Assembly: GCF_013001025.1 (NCBI RefSeq)
Contig: NZ_CP053021.1
Coordinates: 2,187,501-2,251,500 of the forward strand
Reading direction: 5' to 3'
DNA length: 64,000 nt
Origin: Sphingobium yanoikuyae
GTDB taxonomy: Bacteria > Pseudomonadota > Alphaproteobacteria > Sphingomonadales > Sphingomonadaceae
Below are positions 16,142 to 23,233 of the stretch, piece after piece. A program made the translations under genes and the position numbers. Each line of letters starts with the position of its first letter. Within the stretch, counting starts at the first letter, position 1. The notes beneath the pieces were generated by a model, which was not told the DNA's origin, made no database searches, and saw nothing but the letters and a program-made list of their open reading frames with translations.

Positions 16142-16216
16142 GGCCCCTTCGTCTAGCGGTTAGGACGCGGCCCTCTCACGGCTGAAACACGGGTTCGATT
16201 CCCGTAGGGGTCACCA
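16142..16216 (+). tRNA. tRNA-Glu (anticodon CTC)
   Basis: A 75-base cloverleaf with encoded CCA. The acceptor stem pairs GGCCCCT with AGGGGTC (one G-U), the D arm contains TAGCGGTTAGGA, the 5-bp anticodon stem encloses CTCTCAC giving anticodon CTC, and the T arm is ACGGGTTCGATTCCCGT. Its 3' end is partly repeated at 23375-23385, which marks this gene as the likely integration target of the following island. Confidence 0.97.
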
Positions 16217-16217: not shown

Positions 16218-16814
16218 CAAAATCAATGACTTAGTTGGCATTGAAGAACGCCGAGATCGCCAATTCTCCAATAAGCGATTCTTTTCCTCACACTCAGTGA
16301 TCATCTGTGGACGCCGTCGGACGATCCTTGCCATGGATCAGTATAAATAAGGCTGAAACGAGGGTAACTCTAGCCATCCGATCTCAAGCAATGGTTGCCC
16401 GCTCGCTGCCCTCCTGAATGTACTCGAATTTCAAAAACTATCGCTGGTCTAGGAATGTCTGTCGCGACGCTACCCAGCTGATGAACGGCCTGGGTGACAG
16501 GCTGCGGTTCGGCAGATTCGGAGAGCCGAAGGCGAGGTAGCAACCGTTCGCCGGCGCATGATCCGTAAGGGCGGCGGCGTTGTTGAGCATCGCTATCTGC
16601 CGACGCATTACGTGCATTGATAATCGTTCGCAACAACTCATGTGCCGCTTGTTCATGACTGCTATCGGGGCGGTGTGTTCAGCACCTGAGCGTCAGGGAC
16701 AGCCGCATACCGGCCGTCCAGGCATGACCAAATTCCACATTCCACGAATTTCTTGCTATCCTGTTCGATAGCCCATAGTTCCCAGCCCGTCCCCTAACGG
16801 GGGGCAAGATCGCG
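16218..16814. other. Non-coding start of the island, no recognised gene
   Basis: About 600 bases between the tRNA and the riboswitch. Short minus-strand frames (up to 88 codons, 16370-16656) exist, but none has a recognisable domain, good start signal or consistent coding character. The stretch may be the decayed remains of an integrase region. The promoter of the riboswitch transcript must lie in its right end; TTGCTA near 16752 is a possible -35 but no convincing -10 is spaced correctly. Confidence 0.5.
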
Positions 16815-17030
16815 TTGGTGCTTCGAAAGAGGCTTAAAAGGGAACGCGGTGGAGGGGCACTGCCCCTGAAGCCGAGGCTGTCCCTGCAACTGTAAGCGGA
16901 TAGCGCGATGCATATCGCGGCAGGCCAAGGATGCCTGTCGCAGCCACTGGGCCGGACGCTAACTCCTGCGAGGCCTGGGAAGGCCGTGCATCGTGCGATG
17001 ACCCGTGAGCCAGGAGACCTGCCAGCGTCC
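16815..17030 (+). promoter_or_regulatory. Cobalamin (AdoCbl) riboswitch
   Basis: The leader carries the full set of conserved blocks of the B12 riboswitch aptamer in correct order: TTGGTGCTT, AAAAGGGAACGCGGTG, GCCGAGGCTG with CTGCAACTGTAAGCGG, GCCACTGG, TGGGAAGGC, GATGACCCGTGAG, and the B12 box AGCCAGGAGACCTGCC at 17008-17023. All blocks look intact. It lies about 200 bases before the TonB receptor ATG, and the interval (17031-17228) can form further GC-rich hairpins such as AGGA/TCCT pairs near 17170 that may be the expression platform. It is known to lower expression when cobalamin is plentiful. Confidence 0.93.
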
Positions 17031-17228
17031 GGTCGCTCTTGCCTTGGTCCAGGGGATGGCCGCGGCACGGTGTACTCCGTCTGAGCGACGAACTTGCGGC
17101 CAGGCCGCAACGGTGGGTTCCGCCGGTCGCTCGTTTGCGCCCGGTCTCCACCGCTGCGCCCGTGCGAGGAGACGTCCTCCTGCGCGGGAACCTGTCCGTT
17201 CGACTGGAAAACGCAACGGGGGTTACAC

Positions 17229-19364
17229 ATGAATACACGATCGCTTCTTTCCGGCCTGATCCGTTCCGGCGCATCATGTTGCGCACTGGCGGCAAGTGTC
17301 ACCGCAACGCATGCTCAGGAGACCGCCGACGCCGCGCCCGATGGCACGGAGAACATCGTCGTCACGGCGCGCAAGGCCGGCGTCCTGCAACTTGGCCAGC
17401 AGGCCGATGCCTCCAGCCGCCTTGGCCTGACGCCTATGCAGACGCCCGCAAGCGTCGATGTCATCACCAAGGAGATGATCCGCAGTCTTGGTGACCGCAC
17501 GGTCGTTGCGGCGGCGGCGCGCGCGCCGGGCCTGATCAACAATTCCTCGGCATTCGGCTATTCCCTGAGTTCGCGCGGGTTCACCGGCTACACCTCGGTG
17601 ATGCAGCTCTATGACGGTATGCGGGTCTATACGACGACCACGCAGACCTTCCCCGCCGATCCCTGGATGGCCGAGCGCATCGAGGTGCTGCGCGGCGCAG
17701 CGTCCGTGCTCTATGGCGAAGGCGGCATCGGCGGCGCCATCAACGTTGTGCGCAAAAAGCCCAACACCGAAGAGTTCGAAGGTGAACTACGCCTCAGCGG
17801 CGGCTCTTTCGATACATATGCAGCGGCCGGCGGGATCGGCGGGCCAATCGGGGACAAGCTGTCCTACCGCGTGGATCTCAGCTACAACCGGTCGGACGGC
17901 TGGATGGAGCGCGGACGCTCCCGTAGTCTCGCCCTGTCGGCCGCGCTGCGCTACCAGGCCAGTGACGATCTGGTGCTGACCCTGACGCATGATCGCGCCG
18001 ATCTAGATCCGACGATCTGGTACGGCACGCCGCTGCGTGATGGCAAGCTGGTGCGCAAAATCCGCAAGAAGAACTACAATATCGCCGACCGCTCGCTGCG
18101 CTTCGACGATGCCTGGACCCAGGCCAAGGCGGAATGGACGCCTTCAGACGGGGTGACGATCACCAACGTCGCCTATTACCTCACCGGCTTCAAGCACTGG
18201 CGCAATGCAGAAGGCTATGCCTGGTCCGGCGATCAGATCCGCCGGTCGAGCTATCTGGAAATCTTCTACAAGACCAAGCAGTGGGGCGACCGCTTCAACG
18301 CGGTTTTCGACCACACATTGCTGGGCATGGACCACCGCCTGAGCCTGGGCGGAGAGTATAACAGCGGATCGCTGCTGCGCACCGACAGTTCGCCCAATTC
18401 CCGATCCGACCTGGTGGATCCCTACGACTACGCGCCCGGCACGTTTCTGGATGGCGCCTTCGGCACCCGGTACAAGTATAAGACAGATGTGCAGCAATGG
18501 GCGCTGTTCGGCGAAAGCCGCCTCTCGCTGTCGGATCGACTGTCGCTGGTGACGGGCCTGCGCTACGATCGCCCGAAGACCGAGCGCCACGATGCGCTCG
18601 ATCCGACCGCCGACTACACCGCGCGCTATCCCAGTACCAGTTGGCGTGCGGGGCTGGTCTACAATCCCACGGACACGATCTCGCTTTACGCGCAATATTC
18701 CGCGGCCGCCGATCCGGTGACGGCGTTCCTCACCGCGACGCTGGCACAAACCAGCTTCGATGTATCCACCGGGCGGCAATGGGAAGCGGGTGCCAAGGCA
18801 ACCTTCCTCGACGGGCGCGGCGAATTCACGCTGTCGGGCTATCGCATCGTCAAGAAGAAGATCCTGACCCGCTCCGCCAATGATCCCACGGTGTCTGTGC
18901 AGGTCGGCCAGCAATCGTCCTACGGCGTCGAGGCATCGTTCGGACTGGCCGTGACCAAGTCCTTCAGCATCCTGGCCAACGGCACGATCCTGAACGCGCA
19001 ATATGACGACTTCGACGAACTTGTCGGCACGGAGCTTGTCAGCCGCAACGGCAACATGCCGATCGGCGTTGCCGAAAAGGCAGCCAATCTGTGGCTTTCT
19101 TGGCGGCCGGTGCAACCGCTGCACCTCGACACCGGCCTGCGCCATGTCGGCAAGCGCTATTCGGACGCCGCCAATACCCGTCGCATTCCGGCCTATACGC
19201 TCGTCGATGCTTCGGCGCGCTACGACCTGGGAAAGAAGACGAGCGTGACGCTCAACCTGCGCAATGTCTTCGACCGGATCTACGTCCAGAACAGCTATTC
19301 CACCTCGCAGTGGGTGCTGGGTGAGCCGCGCAGCGTCGCGGTGACGTTCGAGCAGCGGTTCTGA
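17229..19364 (+). CDS. TonB-dependent receptor under cobalamin riboswitch control
   Basis: A 711-residue outer-membrane receptor. The signal peptide spans residues 1-30 (ends TATHAQ) and a TonB-box-like ENIVVTAR lies at 41-48. The plug domain follows (TPMQTPASVDVITKEMI; IEVLRGAASVLYGEGGIGGAINVVRKKP near residue 150-180), then a 22-strand type barrel ending in the required C-terminal Phe (VTFEQRF). By sequence it belongs to the siderophore-receptor (FhuA/FoxA-like) group rather than the short BtuB type, yet it sits directly behind a B12 riboswitch. The ATG at 17229 has GGGGG 8 bases upstream. It is followed after 2 bases by a GTG-started DUF3649 gene, so the four genes form one operon. A cobalamin, corrinoid or cobalt-chelate ligand is an inference from the riboswitch. 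Confidence 0.9.
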   Translation: MNTRSLLSGLIRSGASCCALAASVTATHAQETADAAPDGTENIVVTARKAGVLQLGQQADASSRLGLTPMQTPASVDVITKEMIRSLGDRTVVAAAARAPGLINNSSAFGYSLSSRGFTGYTSVMQLYDGMRVYTTTTQTFPADPWMAERIEVLRGAASVLYGEGGIGGAINVVRKKPNTEEFEGELRLSGGSFDTYAAAGGIGGPIGDKLSYRVDLSYNRSDGWMERGRSRSLALSAALRYQASDDLVLTLTHDRADLDPTIWYGTPLRDGKLVRKIRKKNYNIADRSLRFDDAWTQAKAEWTPSDGVTITNVAYYLTGFKHWRNAEGYAWSGDQIRRSSYLEIFYKTKQWGDRFNAVFDHTLLGMDHRLSLGGEYNSGSLLRTDSSPNSRSDLVDPYDYAPGTFLDGAFGTRYKYKTDVQQWALFGESRLSLSDRLSLVTGLRYDRPKTERHDALDPTADYTARYPSTSWRAGLVYNPTDTISLYAQYSAAADPVTAFLTATLAQTSFDVSTGRQWEAGAKATFLDGRGEFTLSGYRIVKKKILTRSANDPTVSVQVGQQSSYGVEASFGLAVTKSFSILANGTILNAQYDDFDELVGTELVSRNGNMPIGVAEKAANLWLSWRPVQPLHLDTGLRHVGKRYSDAANTRRIPAYTLVDASARYDLGKKTSVTLNLRNVFDRIYVQNSYSTSQWVLGEPRSVAVTFEQRF

Positions 19365-19366
19365 TC

Positions 19367-19648
19367 GTGCCGGCGAGGCAGGAGCCGGGCTGGCGCACCA
19401 TCGCGCCGCGCGTGCTGGCATCGACGGTCGGCACCTATGGTCTGTGTTATGCGTGGATTTGCGCGGCGGTACGCCTGCTGCCGATGGATGCGGTTGACGC
19501 CAACATCCTTGCGACCTGCCTCGCCTTCATATTGTTCGTTGCGGTGATCCTTCGCGCCTTCGCGGTGCGCAGCGTCACGCGGATCTGGGGCGAACTGCTG
19601 GTGGGCACGGCCCTCCCCTTCGCCCTGATGCTGGGGGTCGCCAGATGA
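19367..19648 (+). CDS. Small membrane protein, DUF3649 family
   Basis: A 93-residue inner-membrane protein starting at GTG 19367, two bases after the receptor stop. Three hydrophobic segments are seen: ASTVGTYGLCYAWICAAV, ILATCLAFILFVAVILRAF and LLVGTALPFALMLGVA. The opening GWRTIAPRVLAS and the position between a TonB receptor and a PepSY protein fit DUF3649, usually annotated iron-uptake associated. Its stop overlaps the next ATG by 4 bases. Function is unknown; it probably works with the PepSY protein at the inner membrane. Confidence 0.78.
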   Translation: MPARQEPGWRTIAPRVLASTVGTYGLCYAWICAAVRLLPMDAVDANILATCLAFILFVAVILRAFAVRSVTRIWGELLVGTALPFALMLGVAR

Positions 19649-21162
19649 AGGATAGCCTGCGCCAATCCATGGGCTGGTTCCATACATGGTGTGGGCTGCT
19701 GTTCGGCTGGGTTTTGTTTGGCATCCTGCTGACCGGATCGCTGGCGGTGTTCTATACCGAGATCAACCTCTGGACCACGCCCGAACTGCGCTCTCCGGTG
19801 GCCATCGACCGGGGACGAGCCGTAGCGATGGGACGGGATTATCTCACCCGCATCGCTCCGGATGCCAGGCAATGGCGTATCGTCATCCCCACTTCGCGCG
19901 AACCTGTGCTGCGGCTGGTGTGGACCGACGAAGCGGGCAAGGCCACCACCCACCGCCTCGATCCGCAGACCGGCGTCCGCATCCCGCGCGACATGGACGC
20001 CGGCTTCTTCTTCATGCGCTATCATTACACGCTGGGGATCGATCGCAAGTCCAGCCCCATCGGCTTCCTGATCGTGGGCGCGGCAGGCCTTGCCATGCTG
20101 GCCGCATCGATCAGCGGTGTCATCATTCACAAGCGCATATTCCGCGATTTCTTCATCTTCCGCCCCTGGGCCTCGCGCCAGCGGGCGTGGATGGATGCGC
20201 ACAACCTTCTCTCGGTGCTGCCGCTGCCGTTCCACATGATGATGGCCTATACCGGCCTCGTCCTGATCTATTACGCCTATATCCCCGCCGGCGTCGCGAC
20301 GCTGAACGGCGGCGACGTCAAAGCCTATCAGACTGCGGCTGCGCAATCGCGCTACATCGATGTGGAGACACCCGCCGGATCGCCACAGGCCACGGTTGCG
20401 CTGATGCCGCTGGTGGCGCGCGCCGAGCGCGCATGGGGTGGCGGAGCGGCCGTCAACATCTATGTGAGCCATCCCGATCGTGCCAATGCCGCAGTCGAGA
20501 TCTGGCGACAGCGCGACGATCGCATCGCCAACTTCCCCGATCGCGTCGACTTCGCAGGCGCCGACGGCCGGTTGCTGCGCGTTCTGGTGAAGCGCTCCCC
20601 GGCCCGCGAGACCCAGGCCTTCCTTGCCGGACTGCACTTCATCGAATGGGGCGGAATCGCTGCCCGCTGGCTCTATTTCCTGACCGGGCTCGCCAGCACC
20701 GCGATGGTCGGGGCTGGCCTTGTCCTCTTTACCGAAAAGCGGGCGCGCCGGGGCGGATCGGCATTTCACGCCATGGCAGGCCGGATCACCATCGCCGCTG
20801 TGGCTGGAAACATGATCGCCTGTGCGGCGTACCTGCACGGTGAGCAGTTGCTGCCTTCCGGCATCGAAGACCGGCGCAGTATGGCCGCATCTATCTACTT
20901 CCTGGCCTGGCTGCTGAGCCTCATCCCTGCCGGTGCGCGGCCTTGGTCCAGCGCGTGGCCAGAGCAGTTGCGTGCGGCGGCGTTGCTCTGCCTGACTATT
21001 CCCGTGAGCACGGCTCTGGCGGGAACGCCGCTGACGTCAACGCTGGCTCATGGCGATGGTATCCGCTCAGGCGCAGACCTGACGGCGCTGGCGATGGGCG
21101 TCATCTTGTGGATCGCAGCAGGCAGGATCGCTCGCAGGCCGGCCGGAGGCGCTGCGCAGTGA
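19645..21162 (+). CDS. PepSY-associated transmembrane protein (putative ferri-chelate reductase type)
   Basis: A 505-residue inner-membrane protein of the PepSY-TM family. It opens with a membrane span and conserved His (MGWFHTWCGLLFGW), has a periplasmic PepSY-like region (residues about 50-130), then spans at about 145-165, 190-215 (PLPFHMMMAYTGLVLIYYAY), 335-360 and several near the C-terminus. Relatives such as FoxB/FiuB-like proteins sit with siderophore receptors and are thought to reduce iron in the periplasm, probably using heme held by membrane His residues. Here the same protein type is co-transcribed from a B12 riboswitch, so it may act on a corrinoid. It overlaps both neighbours by 4 bases. 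Confidence 0.85.
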   Translation: MKDSLRQSMGWFHTWCGLLFGWVLFGILLTGSLAVFYTEINLWTTPELRSPVAIDRGRAVAMGRDYLTRIAPDARQWRIVIPTSREPVLRLVWTDEAGKATTHRLDPQTGVRIPRDMDAGFFFMRYHYTLGIDRKSSPIGFLIVGAAGLAMLAASISGVIIHKRIFRDFFIFRPWASRQRAWMDAHNLLSVLPLPFHMMMAYTGLVLIYYAYIPAGVATLNGGDVKAYQTAAAQSRYIDVETPAGSPQATVALMPLVARAERAWGGGAAVNIYVSHPDRANAAVEIWRQRDDRIANFPDRVDFAGADGRLLRVLVKRSPARETQAFLAGLHFIEWGGIAARWLYFLTGLASTAMVGAGLVLFTEKRARRGGSAFHAMAGRITIAAVAGNMIACAAYLHGEQLLPSGIEDRRSMAASIYFLAWLLSLIPAGARPWSSAWPEQLRAAALLCLTIPVSTALAGTPLTSTLAHGDGIRSGADLTALAMGVILWIAAGRIARRPAGGAAQ

Positions 21163-21434
21163 TCGTGAACCTGGCCCTATCCCTGGTCCTTGCGGTGGCC
21201 GGCTTCGATGCCATCCGGCGCGGCACATCCCGAAGACACATCGTCTATCGAGCCGCCTGGCGCGCGGGCGGAGCCGCATCGCTGGTTCTGGCGATCCTTC
21301 CCGTCGCGCAACTGGCCACGACCAACCTGATCGCTTCGCTGCTCTGGTTCTTCTGTATCCTGCCGTTGGCCGGGCTCATTGTCGTTTTTGGAAAACCCAT
21401 TCGCCAGTCATCTGGGCGTCCCGATATTGACTGA
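21159..21434 (+). CDS. Small membrane protein, DUF3325-like
   Basis: A 91-residue protein starting at GTG 21159 inside the PepSY stop (GTGA overlap). Three hydrophobic helices are visible: VNLALSLVLAVAGFDAI, AGGAASLVLAILPVAQLA and LLWFFCILPLAGLIVVFG. Length, order and the central Trp-Arg region resemble DUF3325, the usual last gene of TonB receptor-DUF3649-PepSY-DUF3325 operons. The call rests on synteny as much as sequence. It closes the riboswitch operon; no clear terminator follows. Confidence 0.65.
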   Translation: MIVNLALSLVLAVAGFDAIRRGTSRRHIVYRAAWRAGGAASLVLAILPVAQLATTNLIASLLWFFCILPLAGLIVVFGKPIRQSSGRPDID

Positions 21435-21831: not shown

Positions 21832-22385
21832 TCAGGCGAAAATCACGATCAGACTACGGGACAATTGCACGGATCGCAGGCCGAGAGATTTCTGAAGCCG
21901 GGATATGGCTGCAACCGGATCGTCGATGCGAAATACGCCACAGACGTGCAGGGATGATGCGTCGCCCACTATAGTCATGTAGCCGGGATGATAGCGGCCG
22001 ATCTCGGCCACGACCTGACATAGCGGCGCATCCTTGAATACGAGCACGCCGTCCGTCCAGGCGGTGGCCGCTTCCGTATTGATGGAACGAGGAGCATCGA
22101 TACGGCCATCGGCGCCATAGCGGATGGACTGGCCTTCCCGCAGAATGAGGCTGGCCCCCTTGCCCTCTCCGCTGACGAGCATCACGCTGTGCTCTGTCGC
22201 GGTAACCTCAGTGTCGGCGCCCGTCCGGCGGACCGAGAATTGCGTGCCCAGCGCCATCGTTTCACCGATTGCTGCCTGGACGGTGAAGGGGCGGGAACGA
22301 TCGGGCGCAACCGTGAACAGCGCCTCGCCTTTCAACAACCGGATTCGGCGATCCGTCGAGCGGATCTCGATCGTGACCGCACTAG
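21832..22385 (-). pseudogene. FecR-family anti-sigma protein, truncated by an IS
   Basis: The FecR protein is the inner-membrane sensor that passes a TonB-receptor signal to an ECF sigma factor. Only the periplasmic half remains, about 184 residues: RLLKGEALFTVAPDRSRPF, ALGTQFSVRR and the VQAAIGETMA region are classic FecR, and the end (DDPVAAISRLQKSLGL) matches the C-terminal STN-like piece. The 5' part is cut at 22385 by the IS; the in-frame ATG at 22398 lies inside the IS end. Beyond the IS (23234-23374) only about 20 further codons stay open in the joined frame, so the cytoplasmic and membrane parts and the partner sigma gene are gone. Confidence 0.8.
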
Positions 22386-23233
22386 GGCGGATCGACATTC
22401 GGGATTCCCAAAGCGGATGATCGCTGATTCATAGGACGCCGTGTTGATGCGCGGAGTGGATGATGGCGGCGAAGCGGTACGAGTTGAACGAGGTGCAATG
22501 GGAGAGGATTGCGCCGTTGCTACTGGGCAAAGCGACCGATCCGGGGCGGTCGGGAACGGATAACCGCCTGTTCGTGAACGGATGTTTGTGGGTGCTGCGG
22601 TCAGGAGCGCATTGGTGCGATCTGCCGGAGCGCTATGGCAAGCGGAAGACGGTGCATCGCCGCTTCAGCCGTTGGTGCCATGCGGGTGCCTGGTAACGGG
22701 TGTTCGACGCACTGACGGCCGACCGGGACAACCAGTATTTGATGATCGACAGCGCCATCGTTCGCACGCACCAGCAGGCGGCGACCGGAAAAGGGGGGCG
22801 TGCGATCAGGCGCTGGGGCGTTCCCGAGGCGGACTGACCACCAAGATACACATGCTTGCGGACCCGCTCGGCCGGCCGCTGCGCTTCATCATCACGCCCG
22901 GCCAGACTGGCGACGTTACTCAGGCGCCGGCCCTGCTGCACGGACAGGAAGCCGTCGTCGTGCTCGCCGACAAAGCTTATGACAGTAATGCTTTACGGAC
23001 AATCATCGCGAAAATGGGCGCCGAAGCGCTCATACCTTCAAACCGCTGCCGTAAGATCGCCATCCCGCATGACGCGCTGATCTACAAACACCGCAATCGT
23101 ATCGAACGATGTCTCGGCAGGCTCAAACACTTCCGCCGCTTCGCAACACGCTACGATCGCCGCACCATCCACTTCGCCAGCTTCACAAACCTCGCCGCCG
23201 CCATGATCTGGTTACGCTGAATGTCGATCCGCG
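22386..23233 (+). mobile_element. IS5-family (IS427-like) insertion sequence, 848 bp
   Basis: Ends are defined by imperfect inverted repeats: the left end GGCGGATCGACATTCGG and, on the other strand, the right end CGCGGATCGACATTCAG. CTAG flanks both sides (22382-22385 and 23234-23237), fitting the YTAR target and TA duplication of IS5-type elements. The transposase frame fills most of it. The element sits inside the fecR remnant. Confidence 0.85.
22460..23220 (+). pseudogene. IS5-family DDE transposase, split and with a nonsense codon
   Basis: The first frame encodes the DUF4096-type N-terminus (LNEVQWERIAPLLLGK; WVLRSGAHWCDLPERYG). Translation then meets TAA at 22694-22696 where relatives are expected to have Glu (GAW-stop-RVFDALTAD). 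The same frame continues to the slippery run A4G6 (22789-22798), after which the -1 frame encodes the rest: GGLTTKIHMLADPLGRPL, VLADKAYDSNALR and the catalytic Glu region HRNRIERCLGRLKHFRR. The -1 shift is normal for IS427-group elements; the TAA is not, and probably inactivates this copy. Confidence 0.82.

Follow-up and report, generated by a model that had tools for sequence, protein, structure and literature searches.

A cobalamin riboswitch ahead of a CrtA-like receptor and a PepSY membrane cassette in Sphingobium yanoikuyae: a candidate cobalt-chelate acquisition operon

The stretch of DNA analyzed here (the window) comprises 64,000 nucleotides of Sphingobium yanoikuyae, positions 2187501-2251500 on a 5.23-Mb contig of a 5.94-Mb genome, and contains a cobalamin riboswitch followed on the same strand by four closely packed genes, specifically those for a TonB-dependent receptor, a small membrane protein, a PepSY_TM protein, and a second small membrane protein (Table 1). 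The original prediction for this locus, of an intact B12 riboswitch and four genes with 2-4 base spacing or overlap, was borne out on both counts. In a covariance search, the Rfam model RF00174 aligned over its full length and far above its gathering score of 31.5 bits, and the coordinates place the first small open reading frame (ORF; 19367) 2 bases past the receptor stop, with the PepSY ORF and the last ORF each overlapping by 4 bases. The B12 box, AGCCAGGAGACCTGCC, is present within 16799-17040, and the aptamer was aligned with 16 others. The long-range stem of the putative expression platform was predicted by folding, and its energy is not unusual (z only -0.8); both of its arms are conserved in 12 of 16 leaders compared. 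A terminator scan gave 3 hits versus 2.6 expected. The receptor start at 17229 is our choice, namely the first in-frame ATG, which follows a GGGGG stretch.

Table 1. Features of the riboswitch-receptor-PepSY cassette, in window coordinates
Feature	Coordinates	Strand	Evidence
Cobalamin riboswitch aptamer, full length	16799..17040	+	RF00174 95.2 bits, E 1.9e-22; model 1-189/189
Putative expression platform	17032..17089	+	Long-range stem GTCGCTC/GAGCGAC; 5' arm overlaps aptamer 3' end
TonB-dependent receptor, 711 amino acids, CrtA-like	17229..19364	+	Plug and barrel; best solved match CrtA 9RVQ
Small membrane protein, 93 amino acids, DUF3649-like	19367..19648	+	Orthologues in loci L190, L191, L042; homologues adjoining PepSY genes in other bacteria
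PepSY_TM protein, 505 amino acids	19645..21162	+	PF03929 187 bits; His residues expected for two hemes
Small membrane protein, 91 amino acids, DUF3325-like	21159..21434	+	Position and overlap; 48% identical stretch in L190; weak DUF3325 match at L191 counterpart

Only two domains were matched in the receptor, a Plug (75 bits) and a beta-barrel (174 bits), and the domain scan found no N-terminal signalling domain. Among all solved chains, CrtA of Bordetella pertussis (9RVQ) stood out at 330 bits, with the runner-up at 134 bits. CrtA imports chelated copper, has a PepSY_TM gene behind it in >75% of its loci, and depends on an invariant, essential His358 (PMC12914433). The receptor had been described as siderophore-style, and it does pass the siderophore receptor subfamily model TIGR01783 (278 bits, cut-off 223.5); however, this is a general label that does not specify the cargo, and the nearest solved relative remains CrtA. 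By these models the receptor is not BtuB, as it scored 79.3 bits with the BtuB equivalog TIGR01779, far below the cut-off of 599.7, which the genome's own BtuB-like receptors also failed (329 and 328 bits).

The PepSY_TM protein scored 186.9 bits with PF03929 (cut-off 28.8), and PepSY proteins compared with solved chains by sequence search gave no match at E 1. Residues His13, His127, His186, and His331 are invariant in 32/32 aligned PepSY sequences, as is His162; the assignment of the first four as probable heme ligands rests on published accounts of FoxB, which holds two hemes by conserved His residues, and of CrpH, which has similar His residues and loses function when His200 and His444 are both replaced (PMC13038864). 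A second PepSY type, represented by the protein of locus L009 in the same genome (described below), keeps His9, His198, His257, and His435 in 16/16 sequences, with His435 equated to His331 of the window protein by motif, since the alignment places it elsewhere. For the two small proteins, the labels DUF3649 and DUF3325 are weaker than originally stated: with E values as high as 10 admitted, neither was listed for the small ORFs of the window (a scan limited by the HMMER filters, which discard most matches above E ~0.1), but matches below the cut-offs occur in some orthologues. DUF3649 reached 17.1 bits in the N. resinovorum orthologue (cut-off 21.2) and was absent from L191, and DUF3325 reached 21.5 bits in the S. 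herbicidovorans orthologue (cut-off 26.8) and 14.6 bits in that of L190, with none in L042; the names "DUF3649-like" and "DUF3325-like" are thus fair but unproven. In HiuABC, ferrioxamine use requires a small membrane protein next to PepSY (PMC12424826), which suggests by analogy a role for the two small proteins here.

Four cassettes of the window type were found, namely that of the window and those of N. resinovorum SA1 on plasmid pSA1 (receptor 93% and PepSY 82% identical to the window's), S. herbicidovorans MH on plasmid pMSHV (82% and 69%), and C. xixiisoli (genome G008), the most distant of the four (63% and 55%). All four carry the riboswitch, 176 to 253 bases ahead of the aligned receptor. 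For S. herbicidovorans and C. xixiisoli, the fourth gene was recognized by position, and in C. xixiisoli it has no Pfam match. In a blastn comparison with pSA1, similarity spans 16775-21119 of the window, beginning just ahead of the riboswitch and stopping shortly before the PepSY gene does, and the flanks show none; the riboswitch and first three genes are conserved as one unit, and their association is not due to chance.

To place the receptor among its relatives, 54 loci were tabulated from three samplings, all of them blind to riboswitches: receptor places at E 1e-60 in 296 genomes of the order (25 places), at E 1e-120 in 397 genomes of the family (27 places, many shared with the order set), and 13 of 29 plasmid records, with only the best two or three receptor candidates per genome scored in the genome surveys. 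The 44 loci whose receptors are at least 38% identical to the window's form one clade (SH-like approximate likelihood ratio test 100, in a quick tree). A same-strand cobalamin riboswitch lies in front of 31 of these 44 receptors, whereas none lies in front of the 10 more distant ones. The Rfam model agreed for all 44, confirming 31/31 and finding none at the remaining 13; among the 10 outside receptors, two were scanned with the Rfam model and eight only with a custom covariance model, R1, which was used because a simple motif scan missed two true cases, and which was built from 17 aptamers including those of the window and other counted loci, so that these match it by construction. At L152, counted among the 31, the riboswitch is truncated by the contig end, which leaves just the 3' part visible. 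Across the tree, the riboswitch label changes 5 times versus 17.8 in shuffles. The riboswitch-linked members span Sphingomonadales, Rhodospirillales, Rhodobacterales, Hyphomicrobiales, and Burkholderiales, and include Azospirillum, Paracoccus, Bradyrhizobium, Methylobacterium, and Cupriavidus.

Directly behind the receptor, 24 of the 31 riboswitch loci have a PepSY gene, four of the window type, 19 of the L009 type, and one a weak match (L189); thus, the riboswitch-PepSY association of the original prediction does recur elsewhere. A NiCoT gene occurs in four of the 31 (three with PepSY, one without) and an ATP-binding cassette (ABC) importer in another count of four, with none of these modules recognized in two. 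At L148, L181, and L184 the order is riboswitch, receptor, PepSY, NiCoT, riboswitch, CobW, CobN, and at L180 it is the same minus NiCoT. Two further arrangements were observed: L176 has two same-strand cobalamin riboswitches ~800 bases apart, the second preceding a receptor with no recognized PepSY, NiCoT, or ABC gene behind it, and Comamonas endophytica (L204) has a related receptor-PepSY pair without a riboswitch.

The PepSY subtype of the window differs from that adjoining most relatives of its receptor and, together with the preceding small protein, resembles cassettes of Pseudomonas and others. This resemblance, the passing TIGR01783 score, and the example of HiuABC in Caulobacter, where a receptor, a PepSY protein, and a small protein serve ferric hydroxamates (PMC12424826), would all suit an ordinary ferric-siderophore receptor with its reductase that came by chance under a cobalamin riboswitch. 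However, a cobalamin riboswitch was found at none of 98 loci chosen by similarity to the window PepSY protein, many of them from Pseudomonas, as against 31/44 in the receptor clade, and the closest solved relative of the receptor is CrtA rather than a siderophore receptor. Among the 98, one place is entered twice (as L043 and L062), and six loci extend <3 kb upstream of the PepSY gene; outside them stand L042, the window-type C. xixiisoli cassette with its riboswitch, and L046, in which a riboswitch lies ~4 kb off on the other strand and was not counted as linked. For the L009-type PepSY, nine of the 17 best relatives in the 296 genomes have a same-strand upstream riboswitch. Because the riboswitch follows the receptor clade and is absent from the loci picked by PepSY, a plain iron system is thought distinctly improbable, and the window cassette is best seen as a riboswitch-linked receptor whose usual PepSY partner was swapped for one of the siderophore-reductase type.

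Alternatively, the system might import another divalent metal, whether copper, nickel, or zinc, and cobalamin control would then follow incidentally from metallophores being shared. CrtA does carry copper (PMC12914433), a NikR gene (L201, 8364-8846) is divergent to the related receptor of Azospirillum brasilense Sp 7, and a distant receptor-PepSY pair at L162 adjoins a Fur-family ORF, read as Zur-like, a CobW-type GTPase, and NicO. Set against this, most receptors of the clade stand behind cobalamin riboswitches, and NiCoT, CobW, and CobN neighbours indicate cobalt; this alternative is considered very improbable. The A. brasilense receptor cluster itself comes after cobN and an ExbB-type gene. 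Both L162 and L163 are more distant receptor-PepSY pairs with NicO and a CobW-type GTPase adjoining, and may be zinc or nickel systems. A further candidate for a zinc-linked relative, the PepSY and receptor genes CC2927/CC2928 of Caulobacter, was dropped, as these belong to the Fur regulon and are only lowered in a zur mutant, a placement that speaks for iron (PMC4176598).

The S. yanoikuyae genome has six cobalamin riboswitches, that of the window included. One (L011) precedes a BtuB-like receptor (TIGR01779 328 bits, below cut-off), a permease of the FecCD type, and an ATPase that best matched a model for a corrinoid ABC transporter ATPase (246 bits, again below cut-off). Another (L007) precedes a BtuB-like receptor (329 bits); a CobT-type phosphoribosyltransferase is encoded downstream, and a periplasmic binding protein on the opposite strand. 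The remaining three lead into corrin synthesis genes, including CbiC (230 bits) and a tetrapyrrole methylase (L008); CobW and CobN (L010; CobN 1561 bits, over cut-off); and a receptor, a PepSY_TM protein, and a NiCoT transporter (L009; TIGR00802 382 bits, over cut-off), the receptor of L009 being closer to BtuB than to CrtA. As annotated from these matches, the genome holds corrin synthesis genes, a canonical-looking B12 uptake set, and a second riboswitch-receptor-PepSY-NiCoT operon. The cassette as sole B12 importer of the genome was rejected, since BtuB/BtuC/BtuD-like genes sit behind their own riboswitch. The same genes, and a permease in C. xixiisoli 53% identical to the BtuC-like protein of the window's genome, speak against one element of the original prediction, that PepSY stands in for the ABC step in B12 uptake; its broader proposal, an import system for a corrinoid or cobalt chelate with a reductase-type PepSY protein, is retained as regards the riboswitch, the PepSY protein, and cobalt as the likely metal.

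Co(III) chelates are inert, and Co(II) is labile. Cobalt is considered the likely metal because relatives of the receptor adjoin NiCoT, CobW, and CobN and because the clade is linked with B12 synthesis, and we tentatively read the operon, at close to an even balance of belief and doubt, as a cobalamin-repressed system for acquiring cobalt or a cobalt chelate, with PepSY freeing the cobalt reductively. When cobalamin is scarce, the riboswitch would permit expression of the operon, and the TonB-energized receptor would carry a cobalt chelate over the outer membrane. The PepSY_TM protein of the inner membrane, probably together with the two small proteins, would send electrons via two hemes to the periplasmic chelate and reduce its inert Co(III) to labile Co(II). 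The released Co(II) would then enter via a permease encoded elsewhere, most simply the NiCoT of the L009 operon, and could supply CobN for B12 synthesis. CbiC was found in the genomes of 13/19 riboswitch loci versus 0/12 without the riboswitch (Fisher p 1.4e-4), and, in the order sample, NicO was found in 9/10 riboswitch genomes versus 0/5 others. NicO is also present elsewhere in the window's genome.

Several observations weigh against this cobalt reading. The tree offers only three to five independent contrasts, and the CbiC association is not significant after accounting for shared descent. For six riboswitch loci, the host genome lacks CbiC (G008, G061, G526, G499, G478, and G507), although G507 is only 83% complete and both G478 and G507 do carry CobW and CobN. 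Among the 13 clade loci without a riboswitch, 12 keep PepSY behind the receptor, and the receptor-PepSY pair is thus not tied to cobalamin everywhere. No NiCoT gene was found among the window genes around the cassette, leaving the operon without a permease. At the CrtA site, in an alignment read by hand, only two of six residues are conserved at the aligned position: Glu337 and Arg395 are kept as Glu328 and Arg384 (the latter not general across the clade), but the essential His358 is replaced by Tyr347 and Gln356 by Ile345, and Tyr130 and Trp265 align with Thr135 and Tyr265, a Tyr and a Trp sitting one place earlier. Among the 54 aligned receptors, the His358 column is Tyr in all four of the window type, as against His in 49 and Gln in one of the other 50. 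Finally, neither CbiC nor NicO was found in C. xixiisoli, which has both the window-type cassette and its riboswitch. As a side observation, L180 (9216-14439) and L189 (10151-12998) have a riboswitch, CobW, and CobN, yet CbiC was not found in those genomes, which apparently possess a cobalt chelatase without corrin ring synthesis, that of L189 being the 83% complete G507.

Because CbiC and NicO were both not found in C. xixiisoli, cobalt for de novo synthesis is an unlikely use there and a corrinoid the more natural cargo. In the alternative reading of corrinoid import, the receptor would take a corrinoid poorly handled by BtuB, such as cobinamide or another cobamide, and PepSY would reduce its Co(III) so that the upper ligand is shed more readily, either ahead of ABC transport or in place of it. 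Control by a cobalamin riboswitch would suit such a role, loss of the metal-site His would be expected if the metal is already fully ligated, and in Azospirillum and Paracoccus (L192, L201, and L207) a riboswitch gene cluster holds both a related receptor and an ABC importer, the ATPase of which shares 35-42% identity with the BtuD-like protein of the window's genome. Conversely, the BtuB/BtuC/BtuD-like genes already present in S. yanoikuyae, the BtuC-like permease of C. xixiisoli, the low TIGR01779 score (79 bits against a cut-off of 600), and the coupling of related receptors to NiCoT, an ion carrier, all count against it, and corrinoid import is regarded as rather unlikely, although it is a serious competitor of the cobalt reading.

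Returning to cobalt-chelate import, the lost His fits a fully ligated metal, whether in a Co(III)-siderophore or a corrinoid. It is possible, if somewhat doubtful, that CrtA-type riboswitch receptors are widespread cobalt-chelate importers with exchangeable inner-membrane modules (PepSY, NiCoT, or ABC), and that the window subtype lost the His and gained a ferrisiderophore-type di-heme reductase with two small partners, allowing it to use fully ligated Co(III) complexes, e.g., Co(III)-siderophores, from which cobalt would be freed by reduction. If true, this would be, to our knowledge, the first reductive route of cobalt acquisition. Metal reductases of the PepSY_TM kind are known to act on iron, and a role with copper has been suggested; cobalt would extend the list by a metal whose reduction is chemically sensible. 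The clade also offers a testable receptor family that is regulated by what cobalt is finally used to make and that occurs in soil bacteria amenable to culture. Were the cargo a corrinoid, the operon would bear on those B12-using bacteria that lack BtuFCD (PMC2667541).

Other features were noted around the cassette and its relatives. A tRNA-Glu (ctc) gene lies at 16142-16216, ~580 bases upstream of the riboswitch; since plasmids typed as conjugative carry two of the cassette's relatives, insertion may have occurred here. Immediately past the cassette on its downstream side, a FecR-like ORF of 188 amino acids (21832-22398) lies on the minus strand, and next to it, at 22460-23220 on the plus strand, are ORFs in two overlapping frames, read as a transposase. 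Control of the cassette by FecR was considered and judged unlikely, the FecR piece being on the opposite strand and the receptor having no signalling domain. In C. xixiisoli, a further cobalamin riboswitch precedes a gene for a two-domain hotdog (4HBT) thioesterase (L174, 7131-8195).

Among known systems, CrtA-CrpH of B. pertussis is like the window in receptor sequence, in the PepSY_TM gene close behind, and in its conserved heme-type His residues; it differs in being under copper control instead of a cobalamin riboswitch and in having His358 where the window receptor has Tyr347, and the window adds two small membrane proteins. HiuABC of Caulobacter crescentus is likewise a single operon for a receptor, a PepSY_TM protein, and a small partner in the membrane, but is Fur-controlled and serves iron; both HiuABC and FoxB of Pseudomonas aeruginosa are ferric-siderophore systems, with no cobalamin riboswitch mentioned in the available part of the account (PMC12424826). 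In Zymomonas mobilis, ZMO1631-ZMO1628 encode a TonB receptor and then three membrane proteins, one of them PepSY, discussed as a possible iron cluster (PMC12817903) and likened here to the window by description, not by sequence. BtuB-BtuCDF shares a cobalamin riboswitch and a TonB receptor with the window, whose receptor is not BtuB and whose operon has no ABC importer. The original prediction knew of no described system of this kind. A link between cobalamin riboswitches and PepSY was indeed described in no paper of the literature searched, which left out most subscription journals and makes this a weak absence, and a paper on sphingomonad TonB receptors (PMC7142613) has neither PepSY nor riboswitch in its text. 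The receptor part had a precedent, however: in Novosphingobium aromaticivorans, a TonB receptor that follows an adenosylcobalamin riboswitch and neighbours NiCoT and CobW was predicted to be cobalt-specific (Rodionov 2006, via PMC7689651), and according to the same review no cobalt-specific outer-membrane receptor has been confirmed. The window shares with that locus the riboswitch ahead of a TonB receptor, and relatives of the window receptor lie in comparable clusters (L164, L148, L181, and L184); the window itself has PepSY and two small proteins, with no NiCoT or CobW in the operon. The cassette thus brings together familiar components, but their regulation and modular arrangement form a combination that we have not seen described.

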